Source: Cyclobacteriaceae bacterium (GTDB lineage Bacteria; Bacteroidota; Bacteroidia; Cytophagales; Cyclobacteriaceae). From it: DNA of 64,000 nucleotides. Below are positions 2,352 to 45,818 of this stretch, one piece after another. Each line of letters opens with the position of its first letter. The first letter of the stretch is position 1. The stretch spans positions 62,001-126,000 of the forward strand of contig JAOUDZ010000001.1 in NCBI GenBank assembly GCA_029858965.1, in the 5' to 3' direction. The notes under the pieces are model-generated. The model made no database searches. It saw only the letters and a program-made list of their open reading frames with translations, and had not been told where the DNA came from. The translations under genes were made by a program, and so were the position numbers.

Positions 2352-2753
2352 ATGAAGTTCCCGCAATTATTTACAAAAATTCCCAAACACAAGCGATTTG
2401 GTTATACCCCAAGGCACTATGATCCACAGGAAGAGGAACGTAAGGAGAGAGAGTTGCGGATCCGACAAGAATTGATTACCGAAGGCGGCGCAGGGAAAAG
2501 GGAAGATAATGGATTGAAAGGGGAATTGTCAACCGATTATCGTTCGCGCATTGCCGGGTCATTCAAGAATGCAAAGAAAACCCATTCCGGGCAGTCTGAT
2601 ACTTCAGCAAACATGTTACGCCTTATCATTGCGCTGACCATGACCGTGGGTTTGATTGCTTACTTGCAGGTCGGGAAAAACGCATTGATTGGGGTTGCTT
2701 TGTTTATTATTCCACTTTATTTATACCTAAAATTTAGAAAGTCCCGGGGTTAA
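2352..2753 (+). CDS. Small conserved membrane protein upstream of mutL
   Basis: A 133-residue protein whose function I do not recognise. The first about 90 residues are hydrophilic and highly charged, with many Glu/Arg at 26-45. The C-terminus has two closely spaced hydrophobic segments at about 95-112 and 116-130, so the N-terminal part probably faces the cytoplasm. It lies 34 bp before mutL on the same strand, so cotranscription is likely. I recall similar small proteins in front of mutL in related genomes, but that is memory and not something the sequence proves. Confidence 0.7.
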   Translation: MKFPQLFTKIPKHKRFGYTPRHYDPQEEERKERELRIRQELITEGGAGKREDNGLKGELSTDYRSRIAGSFKNAKKTHSGQSDTSANMLRLIIALTMTVGLIAYLQVGKNALIGVALFIIPLYLYLKFRKSRG

Positions 2754-2787
2754 TCCGGACCATATTCAATTTGCATATTCAATATTG

Positions 2788-4578
2788 ATGCCTGATATAA
2801 TTCAGCTTTTACCGGATTCTATTGCCAACCAGATTGCTGCAGGCGAGGTCGTTCAAAGACCCGCTTCGGCAGCAAAAGAATTGCTGGAGAATGCCATCGA
2901 TGCGGAAGCCACATCGATCAAGCTGATCATAAAGGAGGCAGGAAAAACACTTCTTCAGGTAATGGATGACGGGAAGGGAATGTCTGAGACTGATGCCCGA
3001 ATGAGCCTGGAGCGACATGCCACTTCAAAAATCAGGAAAGCGGAAGATTTGTTTCAGCTGCGCACAATGGGGTTCCGGGGAGAAGCCCTTGCGTCTCTGG
3101 CAGCCGTCTCCCAAATGGAAATGAAAACGCGATTAGCTGACCAGGAGCTTGGGACTTTGTTGGTTATAGAAGGTTCTGAAGTGAAGCGTCAGGAGCCAAC
3201 AGCATGTGATATTGGCACCAGCATAGCTGTAAAGAATCTTTTTTACAATATCCCCGCGCGGCGGAATTTTCTGAAATCAAATGCAAATGAATATCAGCAC
3301 ATTCTTGACGAATTTCAACGGCTTGCGCTTTCACATCCTGAAATTTCATTTCAACTAATTGAAACAGATACAATCGAATATGATTTACCGCCATGCAAAC
3401 TAAGCCAACGGATAGTGAACATTTTCGGAAAATCGTATCAGGAGCAGCTGGCTCCGTGTCAGGAAGAGACTGCGCTGGTCAGGATAAGCGGATACCTGGG
3501 TAAACCACAAGCTGCGCGCAAAAAAAGGGGCGAGCAATTCTTATTTGTGAATAAGCGATTTATTCGGAACAATTATCTTAACCATGCCGTAATGACCGGT
3601 TTCGAAGGACTACTCTCCGATAACAGCTTTCCATTTTACGTACTCTTCATCGAAATAGACCCCAGGCATATCGACGTCAATGTTCACCCTACCAAAACGG
3701 AAATTAAGTTTGATGATGAGCGTGCAGTCTATGCCGTTGTACTGTCAGCCGTACGTCAGGCTATTGGAGCGCACAACCTAACGCCAGCCATTGATTTTGA
3801 TGCTGACGTAAATATTATCGATAAATTGGCGAACGCATCTCCTCAATCAAAGGAAGTATATTTTGAAGAACGATTCAGCACAGCGCTCAACCGTTCCAAT
3901 CTTGAGCATTGGGAAAAGGTTTTTGATGATGATAAAAAAGAAAGTCCTGAGCTAGCGTCTCAGGTTCAAACCCTTCGGTTCGATAGTGCAGTTAATCAGC
4001 CCTCGGATTTACTTCAGGAGAAAACATACTTTCAACTTCATGACCGATATATCGTTAAACAGGTGAAGTCAGGAGTATTATTTGTAGATCAGCATGCAGC
4101 TCATGAAAGAATTTTATTTGAGAAATTCTTGAACCAGAGCAGAAATAGATCGGCGCAAAGTCAGCAAAGCCTATTTCCCCTCACGCTCACATTTAACGCA
4201 GCTGACTTTGCCTTAATCATGGAGATGCAACAGGAAATTGAAGCATTGGGTTTTAGAATAGAAGTATTTGGCAAAAACACCTTGTTGGTAAACGGTGTGC
4301 CGGCCAATATTTCCTCCAGCCGCGAAAGGGACTTGTTTGAAGGGCTTATAGAGCAGTTCAAAATCAATCAGGCTGAATTATCGGTTCCGCTGGGTGAAAA
4401 TCTTGCACGCGCGCTGGCAAAGCGTGCCGCAACAAAGCCTGGCCAGATGCTGGTCCGGGATGAAATGAAGGCGCTGGTGGATAGTCTGTTTGCCTGCACC
4501 ACACCAAATTATTCACCGGACGGGAGGCCCACTTTCTTTATTTTTGAATTGAATAAAATAGAAACTTACTTTCGATAG
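2788..4578 (+). CDS. mutL: DNA mismatch repair protein MutL
   Basis: A 596-residue MutL, normal in length. MutL couples mismatch recognition by MutS to strand removal. The N-terminal GHKL ATPase motifs are present: ENAIDA (about 35-40), DDGKGM (about 60-65) and GFRGEALAS (about 95-103). The C-terminal domain carries DQHAAHERILFE at about 434-445, which fits the DQHA(x)2E(x)4E endonuclease motif of MutL proteins that nick DNA themselves. The zinc-site motif usually written CPHGRP reads SPDGRP near 576-581, so two expected ligands differ. ATG at 2788 is preferred over an in-frame TTG one codon earlier. The gene is followed after 24 bp by two rhomboid protease genes on the same strand. Confidence 0.96.
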   Translation: MPDIIQLLPDSIANQIAAGEVVQRPASAAKELLENAIDAEATSIKLIIKEAGKTLLQVMDDGKGMSETDARMSLERHATSKIRKAEDLFQLRTMGFRGEALASLAAVSQMEMKTRLADQELGTLLVIEGSEVKRQEPTACDIGTSIAVKNLFYNIPARRNFLKSNANEYQHILDEFQRLALSHPEISFQLIETDTIEYDLPPCKLSQRIVNIFGKSYQEQLAPCQEETALVRISGYLGKPQAARKKRGEQFLFVNKRFIRNNYLNHAVMTGFEGLLSDNSFPFYVLFIEIDPRHIDVNVHPTKTEIKFDDERAVYAVVLSAVRQAIGAHNLTPAIDFDADVNIIDKLANASPQSKEVYFEERFSTALNRSNLEHWEKVFDDDKKESPELASQVQTLRFDSAVNQPSDLLQEKTYFQLHDRYIVKQVKSGVLFVDQHAAHERILFEKFLNQSRNRSAQSQQSLFPLTLTFNAADFALIMEMQQEIEALGFRIEVFGKNTLLVNGVPANISSSRERDLFEGLIEQFKINQAELSVPLGENLARALAKRAATKPGQMLVRDEMKALVDSLFACTTPNYSPDGRPTFFIFELNKIETYFR

Positions 4579-38135: not shown

Positions 38136-41100
38136 ATGATAAGCCCAATTTCCCTCAGAAGTCTGCCAGCGATTTTTCTGCTTATTTCAGCATTGGTGTC
38201 ATGCAAAGAATCTACACCAATTGAGCCTCCACTTGTTGTTCGGGAAGATCCCATGCAGGGTGCGATAAGAGCGCAAGAAATCAGGAAGACTACGCCAGCT
38301 CAGCTAGCAGATGGTCTTACCCTCAGTTTGTGGGCTTCCGATTCTCTTGCTCCTGATCCTATTGCCATGTCGATTGACGACCAAGGACGCATTTATCTGA
38401 CCAGAACGAACAGGCAAAAAAATTCTGAATTTGATATACGCGGACACAGGGACTGGATGATCGCATCGATTGGTCTGCAATCGGTCGAAGAAAGACGCGC
38501 TTTCTTAAGAAGCACTTTTGCCCCGGAACGAAGCAAGGAAAATGAATGGCTTGCAGACTTGAACCATGATGGCAGCCATGACTGGCGAGATTTAGCAGTA
38601 GAGAAAGACGAAGTATGGCGTCTGGAAGATGAATCAGGCGATGGCATTGCTGATGTCTCAACCCGGATAGTAAGTGACTTTCATGAAGAAATAACTGATG
38701 TAGCAGGTGGTTTATTGGTTAGAAAAGAGGATATGTTCGTTGCGATCGGCCCGGATGTCTGGCGACTGAAAGATACCAACGCAGACGGCATACCAGATCA
38801 AAAGGAGTCGATCAGCCATGGCTACGCTGTGCATATTGGATTCGGTGGCCATGGGATGTCCGGAATAATAGAAGGCCCGGACGGCAAAATTTATTGGGGT
38901 ATAGGCGATATCGGTGCGAATATTACAGCGCTCGATGGAACTGTCCATTCGTATCCAAACGAGGGAATTATTGCCCGCTCGAATGCGGATGGCAGTGACT
39001 TTGAAGTATTTGCAAAGGGCTTACGCAACACCCATGAATTTGTGTTTGATGAATATGGAAACATTATCAGTTCAGACAATGACGGGGATCATCCGGGGGA
39101 AAGCGAGCGCCTTGTGCATATTGTTGAAGGGTCAGACGCAGGCTGGAGAGCAAATTGGCAATATGGTAAGTATGTAGATCCGAAGAATAATACCTACAAA
39201 GTATGGATGGATGAAGAGTTGTTTAAGCCCCGGTGGGAAGGACAGGCTGCCTACATTATCCCGCCAATCATCAATTATCACAACGGTCCCACAGGGATGC
39301 AATATAATCCCGGCACGGCGCTAGGAGCTGACTGGAAGAATAGATTTTTCCTGGTGGAATTCGTAGGAAACCCAAGCCGGTCGCATATCTGGTCATTTAG
39401 CTTAAAACCTGCAGGAGCATCCTTTTCGCTGGCGGAAGAAAAGGATGTTATCAGTGGTATTTTACCTACTGGTATAAAGTTTGGCCCGGATGGAGCGTTG
39501 TATGTGGCCGACTGGATCAATGGATGGGATACCAAGAATTATGGAAGAGTATGGAAGTTGGATGTGACCGAAGAAAAAAACGATTTGAAGGCAGCTAGAA
39601 TAGAAACAAAGCGTCTGATGCTGTTGGATTACGCAAAACAATCTGACGAAGAATTACTTTCATTGCTATCCTATGCAGACATGCGTATTCGGCAAAAAGC
39701 CCAATTTGAATTAACCAAAAGAGGCAGTTTGGAGATTTTCAAGCGAGCGATCGCCCAGCGCGATAACCAGTTGGCACGCATTCATGGTATCTGGGGTATT
39801 GGTCAATTGGCCAGCAAGGATAGAACAAGTACTGCATCACTCATCGACTTGCTGAAGGATAGCGATCCGGAGATAATTGCGCAAGCCGCCAAAATAATTG
39901 GTGATGTTAAGTATGCAGAGGCTGCAAGTCAGTTGATCCCGCTACTTTCCCACCAATATCCACGTGCGGTGTTTTTTGGCACCCAAGCCCTGGGACGTAT
40001 AGCCTACCCGGAAGCAGTTGATCCCATCATTAAAATGCTCGAGCGAAATAATGATGAGGACATATACCTCAGGCATGCAGGCGTATTGGCGCTAACGCGC
40101 ATTGGAAAGGAAGATGCCGTTACCGCGCTGGCAGATAACCCAAGCAGAGCGCTCCGGATTGCTGCAGTGTTGGTGTTGCGCAGAATGCAAAGTGAAAAAG
40201 TTTCACTTTTTCTTCAAGACTCCGATGAGTATATCGTAACGGAGGCAGCACGCGCCATCAACGACGATCTGTCTATTGAAGCAGCTTTACCTGCCCTTGC
40301 CGCTACGCTGGGTGAAAAAAGATTCTCAAATGAAGCCTTGTTAAGGCGGGGGATCAACGCCTGCCTTCGCGTAGGGGGAGAAAAAGAAATGGATCTTATG
40401 ATCTCATTCTCAAAACGAATTGACATTCCTGCCCATATACGGGCAGAAGCATTGGCCACGTTGGGTGGTTGGCCAAACCCTTCCACCCTGGACCGGGTAG
40501 ATGGCCGTCTTCGCGGCAAGATTGAACGTGATCCAACAGTGGCCACAACAAAGGCAAGCGCTATGGCTGGTTCCTTGTTGCAGAACAAAGATGCTGACAT
40601 CCTGGTTGCCACAGCACAAATGCTGAGTACACTTGGAATCAAGGACTACAATGCGTCATTCGTGAAAATAATGCAGCAGCATAGTTCACCGGAAGTGCGG
40701 TCGGCTATGCTAACGGCCCTTCATAAGTTGAAATACGATAACATTGAAGCTGTCATTACGCGGGGAATGAATGATAAGGATATGAACGTACGTACAACGG
40801 CAGTGGGTCTATTGAATGAGCTGGATATTACGAAGGAAAATTTACCCGGCATTGTGGATCCAATCTTCAAAAAAGGAACTGTGCAGGAACAACAACAATT
40901 GCTAAGGGTGCTGGGTGAAATGCCATTGGCAAAAAGTCAGCCGGTGTTAGATGGGTTGATTGACCAACTGGCAGCAAAAAAACTTTCACCTGCTATTACA
41001 TTAGATTTGACTGAGGCAGTGGATTCCACGCATTCTGAAACACTAATCGCCAAGTTAGATCCACTTCGCCCCACCGGCAACAGTACGGAAGGTTTCCTGG

Positions 41101-41534
41101 AAACACTGTATGGCGGAGATGCAAGACGCGCAAGAAGATATTTCATGGAAAATTCCACTGTTCAATGTGCGCGCTGCCACGCCATCAGAGGTGCGGGTGG
41201 AATTGTTGGACCAGAACTTACCTATATCGGAGACAAACTGAGTCGTGAAGAACTGTTGCGTGCGCTCATTGAACCCAGCGCAAGACTCTCTCCTGGTTAT
41301 GGATCTGTAAAACTTACCCTGAAAGATGGGCAGGTAATCACAGGCATCCTTATGGAAGAAAAAGAGGGTAAGTTGATCATCAAAACTTCAGAAGCTGAGC
41401 CACTTGAGGTCGCAACCTCACGGATAGACAAAAGGGAAAACATGCCTTCCAGCATGCCTCCTATGGGCAGTCTGATGTCAAGGCGGGAAATTAGAGACAT
41501 GATTGAATTCTTATCGAGCTTGAAGCAAAGGTAG
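38136..41534 (+). CDS. PVC-type haem-binding CxxCH lipoprotein with dehydrogenase-like propeller and HEAT repeats
   Basis: A large (1132-residue) exported protein. The signal ends with LISALVSC, a lipobox. Residues about 45-480 form the membrane-bound-dehydrogenase/PQQ-sugar-dehydrogenase-like beta-propeller (GLRNTHEFVFDEYGNIISSDNDGDH, IKFGPDGALYVADWI). Residues about 500-970 are HEAT-like helical repeats. The C-terminal cytochrome c module has one CxxCH (CARCH, near 1010) and the family block GPELTYIGDKLSREELLRALIEPSA. Such proteins are abundant in Planctomycetes/Verrucomicrobia and occur in Cytophagales. It probably passes electrons from an unknown organic substrate. No neighbouring sugar-utilisation genes are seen. 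Confidence 0.9.
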   Translation: MISPISLRSLPAIFLLISALVSCKESTPIEPPLVVREDPMQGAIRAQEIRKTTPAQLADGLTLSLWASDSLAPDPIAMSIDDQGRIYLTRTNRQKNSEFDIRGHRDWMIASIGLQSVEERRAFLRSTFAPERSKENEWLADLNHDGSHDWRDLAVEKDEVWRLEDESGDGIADVSTRIVSDFHEEITDVAGGLLVRKEDMFVAIGPDVWRLKDTNADGIPDQKESISHGYAVHIGFGGHGMSGIIEGPDGKIYWGIGDIGANITALDGTVHSYPNEGIIARSNADGSDFEVFAKGLRNTHEFVFDEYGNIISSDNDGDHPGESERLVHIVEGSDAGWRANWQYGKYVDPKNNTYKVWMDEELFKPRWEGQAAYIIPPIINYHNGPTGMQYNPGTALGADWKNRFFLVEFVGNPSRSHIWSFSLKPAGASFSLAEEKDVISGILPTGIKFGPDGALYVADWINGWDTKNYGRVWKLDVTEEKNDLKAARIETKRLMLLDYAKQSDEELLSLLSYADMRIRQKAQFELTKRGSLEIFKRAIAQRDNQLARIHGIWGIGQLASKDRTSTASLIDLLKDSDPEIIAQAAKIIGDVKYAEAASQLIPLLSHQYPRAVFFGTQALGRIAYPEAVDPIIKMLERNNDEDIYLRHAGVLALTRIGKEDAVTALADNPSRALRIAAVLVLRRMQSEKVSLFLQDSDEYIVTEAARAINDDLSIEAALPALAATLGEKRFSNEALLRRGINACLRVGGEKEMDLMISFSKRIDIPAHIRAEALATLGGWPNPSTLDRVDGRLRGKIERDPTVATTKASAMAGSLLQNKDADILVATAQMLSTLGIKDYNASFVKIMQQHSSPEVRSAMLTALHKLKYDNIEAVITRGMNDKDMNVRTTAVGLLNELDITKENLPGIVDPIFKKGTVQEQQQLLRVLGEMPLAKSQPVLDGLIDQLAAKKLSPAITLDLTEAVDSTHSETLIAKLDPLRPTGNSTEGFLETLYGGDARRARRYFMENSTVQCARCHAIRGAGGIVGPELTYIGDKLSREELLRALIEPSARLSPGYGSVKLTLKDGQVITGILMEEKEGKLIIKTSEAEPLEVATSRIDKRENMPSSMPPMGSLMSRREIRDMIEFLSSLKQR

Positions 41535-41654: not shown

Positions 41655-42473
41655 CTATGCGATTTTCCGCAGTGAAAATCTATAATATTGGCGGGAACCA
41701 TTCTTTAGTGTTTCATAAAAACGCGAACCGACGACACCGGCAAACTCCGAAAAAAGTTTTTGCCACTTTTGCGGTATTAGTGTGCGAATGCGCTCTTTTT
41801 TAGTTTCATCCTCTGCTTCAATAGAACGGATGACGTTGGCTGTTATGTTTTCCTCGACCAGCACCTCCATCCCCGAATCACGGAGTTGATTTTTGAGTGT
41901 GCTCATGTTTTCCACATTTTCTTCATTCCGGAAATCGACCAAAAGCAAATGTCCTCCGGGTTTTAAAACGCGCTTGACTTCACTTAGAAATTTGCTTACC
42001 GAACCATACGCATGACATGACTCAACATTAATAACAACATCAACACTGCCATCCTTGAGGGGTATTGCTTCCGCACTGCCTTGCATGAACTTTAGATTGG
42101 GCAAGACATGGATCTTATTCGCAAGGTCAACAGCGCTTTGCGCCAGGTCCATTCCTGTATAAAATGCTGGCTTTAACCTGCCTGCGATATGGCGTGCCCC
42201 ACCCCCTCGCCCGCTGCCAACTTCGAGAACTTGTTTTCCTTCAATCTCAGTTTTAATAGCCAGATAATGATACATCTGCAATGGGTATCTTTGAATCTTG
42301 GTATCTTCAGGCAAATCCAAGGGTGGCTCATTAGCATTGGGTGAATAGCCATAATTCATAAAATGCCAGTCAGCTTCAGGAATGTATTTCGCCAAAAGTT
42401 CGTAAGTCACTTTCGCATTAAACCTCTTGAACCAGGCATAACGCTTTAGTGCATGTATTATCATTTTAATCAT
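41655..42473 (-). CDS. Class I SAM-dependent methyltransferase
   Basis: A 272-residue methyltransferase. Motif I is VLEVGSGRGGGARHIA (about 82-97), with the post-motifs VINVESCHAYGSVSKFLSEVKRVLKPGGHLLLVDFR. The N-terminal WHFMNYGYSPN and RYPLQMYHYLA segments resemble lipid or polyketide O-methyltransferases of the mycobacterial Rv2952 type, but the acceptor here is unknown. ATG at 42473 is chosen because the upstream open frame would start only with TTG and gives an unrelated extension. It is convergent with the PVC-type gene; the TsdA-like gene lies upstream on the same strand, 200 bp away. Confidence 0.88.
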   Translation of the reverse strand: MIKMIIHALKRYAWFKRFNAKVTYELLAKYIPEADWHFMNYGYSPNANEPPLDLPEDTKIQRYPLQMYHYLAIKTEIEGKQVLEVGSGRGGGARHIAGRLKPAFYTGMDLAQSAVDLANKIHVLPNLKFMQGSAEAIPLKDGSVDVVINVESCHAYGSVSKFLSEVKRVLKPGGHLLLVDFRNEENVENMSTLKNQLRDSGMEVLVEENITANVIRSIEAEDETKKERIRTLIPQKWQKLFSEFAGVVGSRFYETLKNGSRQYYRFSLRKIA

Positions 42474-42673
42474 CTGGCAAGCAGTTAAGTTGTCACAATG
42501 TAATAATTTAAAATACAAATCTTTTCATGCCTAAGCGTAGCCTAGCTTACAGCCGCATCACATATTGCAGTACGAACAGGACGCCCATTCAATTGCGATT
42601 GAATACCATCAAAGAAATACAATCGGGTTTGAAATTTATACTTCAACCTAAATCACCCTGATCCACTTATCCT

Positions 42674-43702
42674 CTAATTTTTCTTTTGCAGATCCTTGAT
42701 TGGTCCAAAAGGGCCAAACTTATGCTGCTGCTCAGAAAAAGTATCTGCATACGGGCCAAAAGGATGGTCGAATGGTTTGGTGGAAATATCCGGCCAATCC
42801 TGAGAAAGATCTTTACCGGGCCGCGGCAATGAATTGATGTAGGCAGCAACATCCCACGCCTCTTCATCGGTCAATGTAGGATTGTCATATGAAGCGCCGT
42901 ACGGCATATTCGATTTTACATAAGCCGCAAAACGGGATAGACGAAACAATCCTGCGCCCACATTAAAACTATTGTCGTGCGATAGCGGAGGATACTTCCA
43001 CTCAGGGCTGTTTCCTTCCCGAAATCCTTCTCCACCCAGACCGTGACAACTCATACAATGAACTTCAAATACTTTCATTCCTTTAGCAGCATCCGCCGGC
43101 CTGTTTAGCAAAGGGAGTTCCAGGAGCCCGGCACCGTTTGGATAGACTCCTTTGGGTACTTCACTCCCTACCCATTTGATGTACGCAACAAATGCACGCA
43201 TTTCTGTGCTGTTCTCATCAAGTCTTCTCCCGTTTAGACTACGTTCAATGCAGTCATTTACCCTTCTTTCTACAGATTCGATTTGCCCAGACCGGGCTCG
43301 TTTTTTTGGATACGTCGCTGCCACTGCAGCATAGCTATTCCCAAACGGCTTTTTGCCAGCTTTCAAATGACAATTCTGGCAATTCATCCCATTACTGATG
43401 GCCATCAATTTCCCTTTTGGACCAAGATAAAGCGCAGTGTGCGCCACAAGTTCCCGACCATACCGGATCAAATCACCTTCTGGCGTATTTTCAATTTTTG
43501 TGGAATCAGGAGGCTGCCAAATACTTATACTTGTTTGATCAACTTGCTCTTTCAGTATGGCGGTGGACTTGGCGGTGTTAGGTTGTGGCGGATCTGGCGG
43601 TGGCAAGAATAGTGAAGTAGCTGCACCGGCAATAAATAGGACGCAAACCAGCGCGAAACAATTCAGGTAGGAAATAAATTTTAACAATGAATCTTCTCTC
43701 AT
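42674..43702 (-). CDS. Dihaem c-type cytochrome, TsdA-like (thiosulfate dehydrogenase family)
   Basis: A 342-residue cytochrome with an N-terminal membrane anchor (about 8-30) and two haem motifs: CQNCH at 108-112 and CMSCH at 216-220. The sequence around the first haem (CHLKAGKKPFGNSYAAVAATYP, then RARSGQIESVERRVNDCIERSLNGR) follows the TsdA pattern, including the conserved Arg/Glu and C-R/G-rich block. TsdA oxidises thiosulfate to tetrathionate or works in reverse. The axial Cys ligand expected in TsdA cannot be placed with certainty (C151 of NDCIERS is one candidate). It is the third gene of a reverse-strand cluster behind two DsrE-like genes. Confidence 0.85.
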   Translation of the reverse strand: MREDSLLKFISYLNCFALVCVLFIAGAATSLFLPPPDPPQPNTAKSTAILKEQVDQTSISIWQPPDSTKIENTPEGDLIRYGRELVAHTALYLGPKGKLMAISNGMNCQNCHLKAGKKPFGNSYAAVAATYPKKRARSGQIESVERRVNDCIERSLNGRRLDENSTEMRAFVAYIKWVGSEVPKGVYPNGAGLLELPLLNRPADAAKGMKVFEVHCMSCHGLGGEGFREGNSPEWKYPPLSHDNSFNVGAGLFRLSRFAAYVKSNMPYGASYDNPTLTDEEAWDVAAYINSLPRPGKDLSQDWPDISTKPFDHPFGPYADTFSEQQHKFGPFGPIKDLQKKN

Positions 43703-43738
43703 CGAAGCTTGCCAAGCAAATCTGGTTTCTTTTATTTT

Positions 43739-44146
43739 CTACTCCTTTATGTATCCCCAGCCCTCAGCTTGTTTTGTGACGAGTTCTATAATGGCATCCG
43801 GCACAACATCAACCCCCGGAAGGAGCTGGCTGGTGTCAATATTGTGACGCTTCATTGTTATAGCACAAGCTTTGAAGGATACATTCTGATTCGCTGCAAG
43901 CGCACGCACGCCCTTCTCAATTGTGGATTCATCTTTCAGTACCATCTGAAGTGCCGGCCCATATACCACTACTTCAAATTGTGATTCCGGATAGGCGGAT
44001 GCCATCATAGTAACATGTCGCAATACGGTTTGGTGAGCCAGTGTATCCTTGCTGCTCATATCAAACGCAATTTTTACAGGCCTGGCCTGAGACCATACCA
44101 TAAAGGCAAGGAGAAATAGCGTGGTTGTACAGAATAGTTTCTTCAT
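43739..44146 (-). CDS. Periplasmic DsrE-family protein
   Basis: A 135-residue protein with a signal peptide ending in MVWSQ. The mature part has the DsrE fold pattern: KIAFDMSSKD, an LRHVTMMASAYPESQFEVVVYGPALQMVL strand-helix run, and a conserved cysteine in FKACAITMKRHNI, the sulfur-carrying position in DsrE-type proteins. It ends with VPDAIIELVTKQAEGWGYIK. DsrE proteins move sulfur as Cys persulfide; an exported version is unusual but known in Bacteroidota. It lies 36 bp upstream of the TsdA-like gene and 103 bp downstream of the Tat gene. Confidence 0.87.
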   Translation of the reverse strand: MKKLFCTTTLFLLAFMVWSQARPVKIAFDMSSKDTLAHQTVLRHVTMMASAYPESQFEVVVYGPALQMVLKDESTIEKGVRALAANQNVSFKACAITMKRHNIDTSQLLPGVDVVPDAIIELVTKQAEGWGYIKE

Positions 44147-44249
44147 GACCTTTTCATACCATTAATAAAATCCAGAAGCGATAACTAAGATTACGCAAAG
44201 ATCTATCACATGCGCTAAATAGTAATTATCGCTTCTGAAATAACTTGCC

Positions 44250-44933
44250 TTATCCCGCAAAGCAGTATCCGCATCCCTTTTCCTGTGCACGGCCAACAGC
44301 CCAAACCCCTGAAGGGACAACCTGAATGCCCGGGAGGAGGCTTCCCAGCCACTCCTTTTTCACTTCTGCAGGATCCTTCTTCAAATTTCCGGCTGCAACG
44401 GCAGTATACACTGTAATCGCTGCATCACAAACACAGAACATAACCCCACTTTCCTGCAATTCATTTATACCAATGGCAACGTTCCCAATTCCAGGTACAC
44501 TAAAATCACCTGTTTTGGGCTTCATAAAAGGGTTACGCGTCGCCGGAGCTTTGGTCAAAGGATCATCGGCTTTAAACATTTCACCAAACCGATACGCCTG
44601 CCAAAGTTTGTCCTCAAATGCATAGGGAATAGCATCATGGCGCAGCACAACAACAACACCACATTCCTTTTCAGGTGTTCCCGTATGGTCGTTTGTCATC
44701 AAGAATACTCTTGGCCAGGCGAACGGGAAAATTTCATGTGGTCTCGTGCAATCAAATACGATACGATGCTTGCCTCTAATTTTATTAAACCATGCATCTG
44801 GATCATCCTCAGCCATTTCACTCGACGCATTGCCACCGAACAATGGACTTGGAATAGCATACATGCCCGCTGTCGCACCGACGGCAAGCGCACCAATAAA
44901 ATTTCTGCGGGAAGTAGATTCGTTTTTTTTCAT
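44250..44933 (-). CDS. Tat-exported DsrE-like protein
   Basis: A 227-residue protein with a twin-arginine signal, STSRRNFIGALAVGATAG (about 6-23), implying export in folded state, often with a bound cofactor. The mature region has DsrE-like features: a strand-helix beginning HRIVFDCTRP, VVVVLRHDAIPYAFEDKLWQAY, and a cysteine pair in GVMFCVCDAA at the position where DsrE proteins carry the reactive Cys. The C-terminus adds a second pair, GCGYCFAG. It shares VVPSGVWAV... with the VVPDAIIEL block of the neighbouring DsrE protein. It is the first gene of the DsrE-TsdA cluster. Biochemical role unknown. Confidence 0.82.
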   Translation of the reverse strand: MKKNESTSRRNFIGALAVGATAGMYAIPSPLFGGNASSEMAEDDPDAWFNKIRGKHRIVFDCTRPHEIFPFAWPRVFLMTNDHTGTPEKECGVVVVLRHDAIPYAFEDKLWQAYRFGEMFKADDPLTKAPATRNPFMKPKTGDFSVPGIGNVAIGINELQESGVMFCVCDAAITVYTAVAAGNLKKDPAEVKKEWLGSLLPGIQVVPSGVWAVGRAQEKGCGYCFAG

Positions 44934-45005
44934 AATATATAGGGTTTAGACTGGATACATTTAAACTGATTATTTTCTTGATTTAATGAATTCAAAAGGC
45001 CAATG

Positions 45006-45025
45006 TTGATCACCCCTTGATCACC
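45006..45025. repeat. Direct repeat TTGATCACC x2, candidate operator of the DsrE-TsdA cluster
   Basis: TTGATCACC occurs at 45006-45014 and 45017-45025, an 11-bp period close to one helical turn, about 73-92 bp upstream of the Tat-DsrE start codon at 44933. Each copy contains the palindrome TGATCA. Tandem sites with this spacing are typical of regulator binding. Inference from pattern only. Confidence 0.4.
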
Positions 45026-45347: not shown

Positions 45348-45818
45348 TTATTTGTGGGCTTTTTCTACGCGCAGCCCAACAGCGAAGATTCCTGGCAATG
45401 TATCCAGTCGCATAAACTGTTCAAACTCTACCCGGTACTTTCCTTTGCTTTTGAATTGGTAGTCCCCAAGCAGCAAAAATCTGTGATCATACAAATCTCC
45501 AATACCCCCCTTGCCTAAAGGCTTGCCAGTTTTTTGATCAAAGAGAAATTCAGTCATGAGCTTCTTCTGGATTTCTACGCCGGATGAATCTTGCAGATAG
45601 TATGTGAAAAAGAACCTTGCATATGGATAGGAAACTGCATTCCGGATATTGCCATAAAGATTGTACTGCTGATTGATATCATCAATTTGGAATTCAAAAT
45701 GAGGCTTGTCAGTGACTACCCATTGGCGTTTCTCCAAGTCTGTGATTTGCTCATACACCCGTGTATCATCACATGCTAAAGCAATAGCCGCGATGCATAA
45801 CGCTATTAAAACTCTCAT
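45348..45818 (-). CDS. gldH: Gliding motility lipoprotein GldH
   Basis: A 156-residue lipoprotein: the signal MRVLIALCIAAIALAC ends in a lipobox Cys16. The mature chain has the GldH pattern: FEFQIDDINQQYNLYGNIRNAVSYPYARFFFTYYL, then a GKGGIGDLYDH block. GldH is required for gliding and type IX-associated functions in Flavobacterium, and is conserved in Bacteroidota that may not glide. The start overlaps the stop of ricT by 4 bp (ATGA), so both are translated from one message. It is the last gene of the purD-ricT-gldH unit. Confidence 0.92.
   Translation of the reverse strand: MRVLIALCIAAIALACDDTRVYEQITDLEKRQWVVTDKPHFEFQIDDINQQYNLYGNIRNAVSYPYARFFFTYYLQDSSGVEIQKKLMTEFLFDQKTGKPLGKGGIGDLYDHRFLLLGDYQFKSKGKYRVEFEQFMRLDTLPGIFAVGLRVEKAHK

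Follow-up and report, generated by a model that had tools for sequence, protein, structure and literature searches.

The window analysed here, a stretch of 64,000 nucleotides from a Cyclobacteriaceae bacterium (contig JAOUDZ010000001.1 of assembly GCA_029858965.1), contains three open reading frames (ORFs) that all lie on the minus strand and together span positions 42674-44933 in the window's ORF list. They encode a DsrE-fold protein predicted to be exported by twin-arginine translocation (Tat), a smaller DsrE-family protein also predicted to be exported, and a dihaem cytochrome resembling TsdA. The trio is considered below as a candidate periplasmic module for handling thiosulfate or tetrathionate.

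42674-43702, minus strand: TsdA-like dihaem cytochrome c, 342 amino acids, with an N-terminal hydrophobic segment as putative membrane anchor
43739-44146, minus strand: DsrE-family protein, 135 amino acids, with a signal-like N terminus and predicted export
44250-44933, minus strand: predicted Tat-exported DsrE-fold protein (the Tat protein), 227 amino acids, with twin arginines R9 and R10

Transcription runs from the Tat protein gene (44933-44250) through the DsrE gene (44146-43739) to the TsdA gene (43702-42674), with intergenic gaps of 103 and 36 bases, respectively. An operon is plausible; it is not established because promoter and terminator scans were no better than chance (6 hits for a chance mean of 6.1, and 3 for 3.0, respectively). 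Export of the DsrE and Tat proteins is predicted from their signal motifs. An earlier sequence-only reading had placed three same-strand genes here, as the ORF list bears out; the end it gave, 45025, is no ORF boundary, the first listed start codon being 92 bases further downstream.

Fold and conserved residues of the three proteins

The residues discussed below are encoded on the minus strand at the following positions.

42905-42907, minus strand: codon of TsdA Met266, haem-2 axial methionine position; methionine in 73/73 rows; codon placed by arithmetic
43250-43252, minus strand: codon of TsdA Cys151, haem-1 axial cysteine position (NDC-ERS motif); cysteine in 73/73 rows; codon placed by arithmetic
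43865-43867, minus strand: codon of DsrE Cys94, the protein's one conserved cysteine, which closes strand 3 (residues 89-94); codon placed by arithmetic
44271-44273, minus strand: codon of Tat protein Cys221, near-invariant C-terminal cysteine of the Bacteroidota type only (92/93); missing in four thiosulfate dehydrogenases
44427-44429, minus strand: codon of Tat protein Cys169, at the DsrE active-site position and common to NF052225 proteins (93/93); codon placed by arithmetic
44433-44435, minus strand: codon of Tat protein Cys167, second cysteine of the CxC motif, of the Bacteroidota type only (91/93); missing in four thiosulfate dehydrogenases
44637-44639, minus strand: codon of Tat protein His99, invariant (93/93 and all nine rows of the joint alignment) and common to NF052225 proteins

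The cytochrome is, judging by its sequence, a TsdA homologue with the expected haem ligands. A phmmer search aligned its residues 101-295 with the solved TsdA 4wqc (E 3.6e-37, 131 bits), and the Pfam models SoxA-TsdA_cyt-c and Cytochrom_C both score above their cut-offs. The haem sites C108xxC111H and C216xxC219H are retained in all 73 TsdA rows from related loci, as are the two axial positions listed above. Cys151 aligns with the DC-ERSLNG motif of the solved TsdA; the part of this cysteine as haem-1 axial ligand is described in PMC5146829 (there C138) and PMC9237845. The Met266 position is preceded by asparagine in 70/73 rows. The TsdAs of Allochromatium vinosum and Campylobacter jejuni share the two CxxCH haems and the haem-1 cysteine and haem-2 methionine positions; at haem 2, A. 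vinosum TsdA has a lysine where the window protein has asparagine. Catalysis by TsdA is reported to involve an S-thiosulfonate attached to the haem cysteine (PMC4423706). The known partner of TsdA is the cytochrome TsdB (PMC9237845), whereas the window TsdA is accompanied by predicted exported DsrE-fold proteins.

The 135-residue protein belongs to the Pfam family DsrE (PF02635), with 36.1 bits against a cut-off of 22.7 (E 8e-9). Its predicted structure has a mean predicted local distance difference test (pLDDT) score of 94.4, and the closest Foldseek match is MTH1491 (1l1s; E 8.1e-11, template modelling score by target 0.94). C94 is kept in 45/45 relatives. It is the only cysteine beyond the signal-like N terminus in the window copy, and 40 of the 45 relatives likewise lack further cysteines past residue 25. 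An equivalent cysteine occupies the aligned position in 11/11 further exported DsrE proteins. The sequence-only reading had treated an extracytoplasmic DsrE protein as unusual. It is not unusual here, because the same genome encodes two more signal-bearing DsrE paralogues (L001 and L003) with the same cysteine. A role of the exported DsrE in sulfur transfer is predicted. Elsewhere in this genome (L004, contig C217, minus strand), a row of three genes (1465-1998, 2027-2335 and 2353-3429) encodes an FAD/NAD-dependent oxidoreductase, resembling sulfide:quinone oxidoreductase by eye, a DsrC-like protein and a DsrE2-like protein, and forms a second, cytoplasmic-looking sulfur relay.

The 227-residue Tat protein matches no Pfam family at E<=1, and Pfam searches with 55 homologues at E<=0.1 gave signal or anchor models only and no DsrE. 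The Tat-signal model falls narrowly under its cut-off for the window protein (16.4 against 16.7 bits), and the twin arginines are present in 90 of 93 homologues, the remaining three being truncated by contig ends. The fold is settled only by the predicted structure because sequence and profile searches of solved structures gave nothing firm: the single sequence returned just two unrelated chains (E 0.7), and the profile reached 1l1s at E 0.18 and 2pd2 at E 0.64. The AlphaFold model (mean pLDDT 87.3; 174 residues at 90 or above) matches the DsrE-like structure 2pd2 in Foldseek (E 1.8e-4). Its best VIA-align match has a Z score of 13.8 and a root-mean-square deviation of 1.4 over 107 residues, and the top ten matches (Z 13.8 to 8.7) are DsrE/DsrF/Tus proteins or entries shared with the window DsrE; the next has a Z score of 4.4. 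As modelled, the Tat protein has a DsrE fold, in agreement with the earlier DsrE-like assignment despite the absent Pfam match; it is no member of PF02635, because the Pfam DsrE cut-off is not reached.

In a profile alignment, C169 of the Tat protein falls on C94 of the DsrE protein (80.5%, E 1.3e-5, 57 columns), and strand 3 ends in these same cysteines in the two models. The Tat protein has cysteines at positions 62, 91, 167, 169, 221 and 224, which include the two pairs described earlier, a CxC (C167/C169) and a CxxC (C221/C224). D61, N81, W111, Y114 and Y223 are present in 93/93 homologues, like H99 and C169, C224 is found in 78/93 and C91 in 71/93, and C62 is private to the window copy. 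Loss of the DsrE cysteines in homologues had been named as an observation that would speak against the earlier proposal; the cysteines of both proteins are conserved.

Recurrence and surroundings of the genes in Bacteroidota

Scanning 84,980 species genomes yielded 261 stretches encoding relatives of the Tat protein. The best 80 of these 261 were analysed; all are from Bacteroidota, they lean to close relatives, and they include three pairs of identical rows (L039/L041, L045/L092 and L061/L095). A 3-kb radius around the Tat gene contained TsdA in 64/80 loci, DsrE in 39/80, both in 34/80 and neither in 11/80. The 34 loci with both genes comprise 27 with the arrangement Tat-TsdA-DsrE, four in which DsrE and TsdA flank the Tat gene from the opposite strand, two in which TsdA-DsrE lie downstream, likewise on the opposite strand, and one with Tat-DsrE-TsdA. 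This last order, that of the window, is thus a minority (1/34), found also in G005, from the same genus, and in G029. Gene content is conserved and gene order is variable, so that the conserved neighbourhood on which the sequence-only reading had staked its proposal holds for content and fails for strict order.

A draw of 395 Bacteroidota genomes was scored with E thresholds of 1e-3 for the Tat protein, 1e-40 for TsdA and 1e-15 for DsrE, with at most seven, five and ten candidates, respectively, per genome. The Tat protein was found in 8 genomes, TsdA in 44 and a window-type DsrE in 19. All eight genomes with the Tat protein have TsdA, compared with 44/395 overall (hypergeometric 1.3e-8, genome relatedness ignored), and the two genes lie within 1 kb of each other in six of the eight. 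TsdA is likewise present in 17 of the 19 DsrE genomes, within 3 kb in 13 of these 17. The association of the three genes is not due to chance.

Near home, the Tat gene is patchy, occurring in 3/59 genomes of the order, the window's own included. In trees, the window's Tat gene appears nearest to Chitinophaga copies, and its TsdA and DsrE genes appear nearest to those of G005; the Tat tree omits L032, L070 and L074, which are truncated by contig ends. Replacement of the window Tat gene in place is not claimed, because grouping with near relatives is not rejected (approximately unbiased test, p-AU 0.264). G005 itself carries four Tat-protein copies (L007-L010). Only one adjoins DsrE and TsdA; two of the others stand next to an ORF for a permease-like protein, similar to TauE by eye.

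The window trio is bordered upstream by a GldH lipoprotein gene (45348-45818) and downstream by a methyltransferase gene (41655-42518). At a distance of 1.1 kb, on the opposite (plus) strand, positions 38136-41534 encode an 1132-residue lipoprotein-like protein. It combines DUF7133 and HEAT repeats with a CxxCH segment at the C terminus that resembles cytochrome c.

Other sulfur genes accompany the Tat gene in some relatives. At least one of TauE, a sulfur-transport pair (Sulf_transp, YeeE-type) or a persulfide-dioxygenase-like protein joining metallo-beta-lactamase and rhodanese domains (MBL-rhodanese) was found in 16/80 loci, and in G029 a TauE-like gene lies directly 3' of TsdA. Other contigs of the window's genome carry sulfur-transport genes and a SoxB-like gene. 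SoxB-like genes also stand in five of seven examined TsdA-DsrE loci with no Tat gene (L149-L155). A plasmid of Runella slithyformis encodes TsdA and DsrE together with a SoxB-like protein, an OprD porin, YeeE and DUF6691, and a Spirosoma linguale plasmid encodes TsdA with DsrE. These proteins are called SoxB-like only, because their scores of about 256-274 bits are far under the SoxB cut-off of 550. In eight loci a gene for a ModA/CysP-like substrate-binding protein was seen adjoining TsdA and DsrE (for example, L153 4426-5346, G434); a substrate-binding protein is also part of tsd-sbp-doxDA clusters.

The sequence-only reading had noted the lack of sox genes nearby, and this extends to the genome as far as SoxY is concerned: SoxY (PF13501) was detected in 0/48 genomes, the window's own included, in a search that did not cover SoxZ. 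As a positive control, 11 of these genomes were searched again with two plasmids, and the model found its match in Paracoccus versutus pBEN (1.9e-31). The window system shares the SoxA-TsdA_cyt-c domain with the Sox system (SoxAX, SoxYZ, SoxB), and its relatives share the SoxB-like genes beside TsdA and DsrE; it differs in the missing SoxY and in the low SoxB scores. The TsdA/SoxB pathway of Erythrobacter flavus 21-3 is similar in combining TsdA with SoxB-like proteins and MBL-rhodanese, and sets of tsdA and soxB have been reported in Bacteroidetes (PMC7608252). In the window, by comparison, no SoxB-like gene adjoins the trio, one being present on another contig, and the word DsrE appears nowhere in the main text of the E. 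flavus study (PMC7608252). Among the literature matches listed, judged by title and the start of the abstract, none describes an exported DsrE-TsdA system; subscription papers and preprints lay outside the scope of that search.

Kinship with a haem-free thiosulfate dehydrogenase family

What the analysis adds to the earlier reading is the apparent distant kinship of the Tat protein with a family of haem-free thiosulfate dehydrogenases. Of 55 Tat proteins, 51 are hit at E<=0.1 by the NCBIfam model NF052225, named 'thiosulfate dehydrogenase', the strongest at 2.4e-8, and the best of the copies scanned singly is that of L096 (E 5.2e-11, 42.4 bits). A tblastn search with this more diverged copy returned 13 plasmid records, mostly from Alphaproteobacteria. 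Five proteins were taken from six of these records; four score 375-421 bits, above the NF052225 cut-off of 300, and one scores 285. On three alphaproteobacterial plasmids (L180, L181 and L182), proteins above this cut-off bear the annotation 'transcriptional initiation protein Tat'. The family is presumably that of Acidithiobacillus AFE_0042, an assignment based on the family name, the protein size and the tsd-sbp-doxDA context rather than on a sequence comparison; the Acidithiobacillus plasmid stretches searched held no thiosulfate genes.

The Bacteroidota Tat proteins and the four plasmid proteins have in common the twin arginines, D61, N81, H99, W111, Y114, F166, C169 and Y223. Their two group profiles align over 212 columns (95.6%, E 1.2e-8; the NF052225 profile comprises five sequences only), while control comparisons with unrelated TsdA gave 0.4% and 0.3%. 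The window protein is 24-26% identical to NF052225-type proteins, lacks some 35 residues downstream of the signal, and has C167 and C221 in addition. These two cysteines are not common to NF052225 proteins in a nine-row alignment, in which C169 is aligned in 9/9 rows as the conserved cysteine of the family. The Tat protein is best described as a distant relative, not a member, of NF052225.

Single changes in L096, scored against the NF052225 profile (parent 42.4 bits), point to the same residue. Replacing the C169 equivalent with alanine lowers the score to 37.4, a cost of 5.0, and a leucine control costs 1.7 (40.7). The other changes gave 41.9 (C167), 43.2 (C221), 40.6 (His99), 43.2 (Arg98), 46.2 (Trp211), 39.9 (Tyr223) and 42.0 bits (Arg215). 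Among these nine changes only Cys169 stands out, and the loss at His99 is no greater than that of the control. No solved structure matches NF052225 firmly (best E 0.87). From the alignments, NF052225 proteins probably have a DsrE fold with one reactive cysteine.

Gene context differs between the two groups. The NF052225 gene of Gluconobacter is followed by a substrate-binding protein gene and DoxDA, and the same tsd-sbp-doxDA gene types are given for Acidithiobacillus ferrooxidans in section 11 of a review (PMC6335251), whereas the window Tat gene stands with DsrE, TsdA and the GldH lipoprotein and methyltransferase genes. A tetrathionate-forming activity of the Tat protein is putative.

A possible thiosulfonate module and its alternatives

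The trio may form a periplasmic thiosulfate- or tetrathionate-handling module with a cysteine-bound thiosulfonate and with TsdA as its electron outlet, a reading judged to stand an even chance of being right. TsdA would join two thiosulfates to tetrathionate, or split tetrathionate, with its haem-1 cysteine carrying an S-thiosulfonate, and the electrons would leave for the membrane by way of haem 2. The Sec-exported DsrE, through C94, and the Tat protein, through C169, would be soluble cysteine partners that carry thiosulfate or its sulfane part and exchange bound thiosulfate with TsdA, possibly in a complex. C167 and C221 of the Tat protein could form a disulfide, leading to oxidation or release of the bound group.

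By analogy with relatives, the best supported chemistry would be a cysteine-S-thiosulfonate rather than a persulfide. DsrE3A and TusA of Metallosphaera cuprina are cytoplasmic proteins. They take thiosulfate from tetrathionate as a Cys-S-thiosulfonate (PMC4175335), and they resemble the window proteins in the DsrE fold and in a single conserved cysteine able to carry thiosulfate. Their genes, however, form a dsrE-tusA cluster adjoining hdr-like genes, whereas the window proteins are predicted to be exported.

Several observations count against the thiosulfonate module. It is drawn from genes and models. TsdA is missing from the 3 kb around the Tat gene in 16/80 loci (a contig end falls inside that distance in five of these 16), as is DsrE in 41/80, and in two of the eight Tat-protein genomes of the draw (G156 and G206) the Tat gene and TsdA are on different contigs. 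The window Tat protein itself scores only 15.8 bits against NF052225 (E 0.0067), far from the cut-off of 300, and the L090 copy has no match. Searching the window's own genome with NF052225 gave nothing at E<=10, with weak matches in three control genomes, and tblastn of the window Tat protein against plasmids gave none at E<=0.1. The profile alignments with DsrE are modest, both for the Tat protein alone (80.5%) and for the NF052225 group (74%, E 2.8e-5). Finally, an Asn-Met pair at haem 2 is the state in the tetrathionate-reducing TsdA of C. jejuni (PMC5146829), and the asparagine is also found in thiosulfate-oxidising TsdAs (PMC9237845). As the pair occurs in oxidisers and reducers alike, assignment of the reaction direction from the haem-2 ligands was rejected.

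The same haem-2 residues bear on the proposal that the module reduces or detoxifies tetrathionate, with a reductive TsdA and DsrE-fold proteins that take the released thiosulfate or clear thiosulfonate from thiols. The likeness to the C. jejuni tetrathionate reductase (PMC5146829) would suit this role, which is nevertheless improbable: thiosulfate oxidisers share the asparagine (PMC9237845), and the neighbours, where present, are of the oxidation type (Sulf_transp, MBL-rhodanese, TauE and SoxB-like). A more serious competitor, although still unlikely, makes the Tat protein itself the thiosulfate dehydrogenase. Thiosulfate would attack a disulfide or cysteine (C169 with C167 or C221), a second thiosulfate would free tetrathionate, and TsdA would re-oxidise the reduced Tat protein, acting mainly as an electron acceptor. 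This would make sense of the kinship with NF052225, of the near-invariant C167 and C221, which a single-cysteine carrier does not need, and of the placement of NF052225 genes with sbp and doxDA in Gluconobacter and A. ferrooxidans (PMC6335251), that is, beside a redox partner. NF052225 proteins do without C167 and C221, however, and the Acidithiobacillus enzyme reduced neither horse-heart cytochrome c nor ubiquinone (PMC6335251).

The sequence-only reading proposed that the exported proteins form a persulfide relay, which would receive sulfane sulfur from a carrier and pass electrons to the cytochrome. Cytoplasmic DsrE proteins do carry persulfide (PMC3397948), and the genome holds the cytoplasmic-type oxidoreductase-DsrC-DsrE2 cluster described above, but the chemistry of TsdA is that of thiosulfate and tetrathionate, and the nearest named family of the Tat protein is a thiosulfate dehydrogenase, not a persulfide transferase. 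The probability of such a relay appears as low as that of tetrathionate reduction; the earlier observations are confirmed, and their interpretation is partly supported. That the genes are chance neighbours or have a function outside sulfur metabolism would fit the many relatives without a Tat gene and the varying gene order. It is very hard to reconcile with a proximity that recurs despite reshuffled order and strand, or with the exclusive co-occurrence with TsdA in the 395-genome draw, and is regarded as highly improbable.

Two bolder extensions of the thiosulfonate module are, taken jointly, possible and rather doubtful. One is that NF052225 proteins are DsrE-fold, single-cysteine enzymes, such that thiosulfate oxidation evolved from a sulfur-carrier fold that Bacteroidota coupled to TsdA. 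The other is that exported DsrE replaces SoxYZ in SoxYZ-free Bacteroidota: TsdA, a relative of SoxA, would load thiosulfate on the DsrE cysteine and the SoxB-like hydrolase would strip sulfate, the Tat protein standing in SoxB's place in clusters of the window type. Support for this replacement is thin. One hint is the presence of SoxB-like genes in five of the seven TsdA-DsrE loci without a Tat gene, noted above. A strong SoxB-like match (E<=1e-40) is present in 2/10 genomes with the Tat protein and in 10/13 DsrE genomes without it (Fisher p 0.012, with a threshold picked after seeing the data and relatedness uncorrected). The two in the first group include the window's own genome, which counts against the idea.

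Discussions of TsdA usually treat it by itself or together with a partner cytochrome, and thiosulfate oxidation has been little studied in Bacteroidota; here, TsdA recurs across this phylum with predicted exported sulfur-carrier partners. A 2019 review called for the structure and mechanism of the haem-free thiosulfate dehydrogenase (PMC6335251, section 11). The kinship with NF052225 would offer a fold and a candidate catalytic cysteine for this enzyme, a proposal that could be addressed by way of a single residue. If exported DsrE does replace SoxYZ, this would account for how SoxB-like enzymes function in SoxYZ-free genomes.

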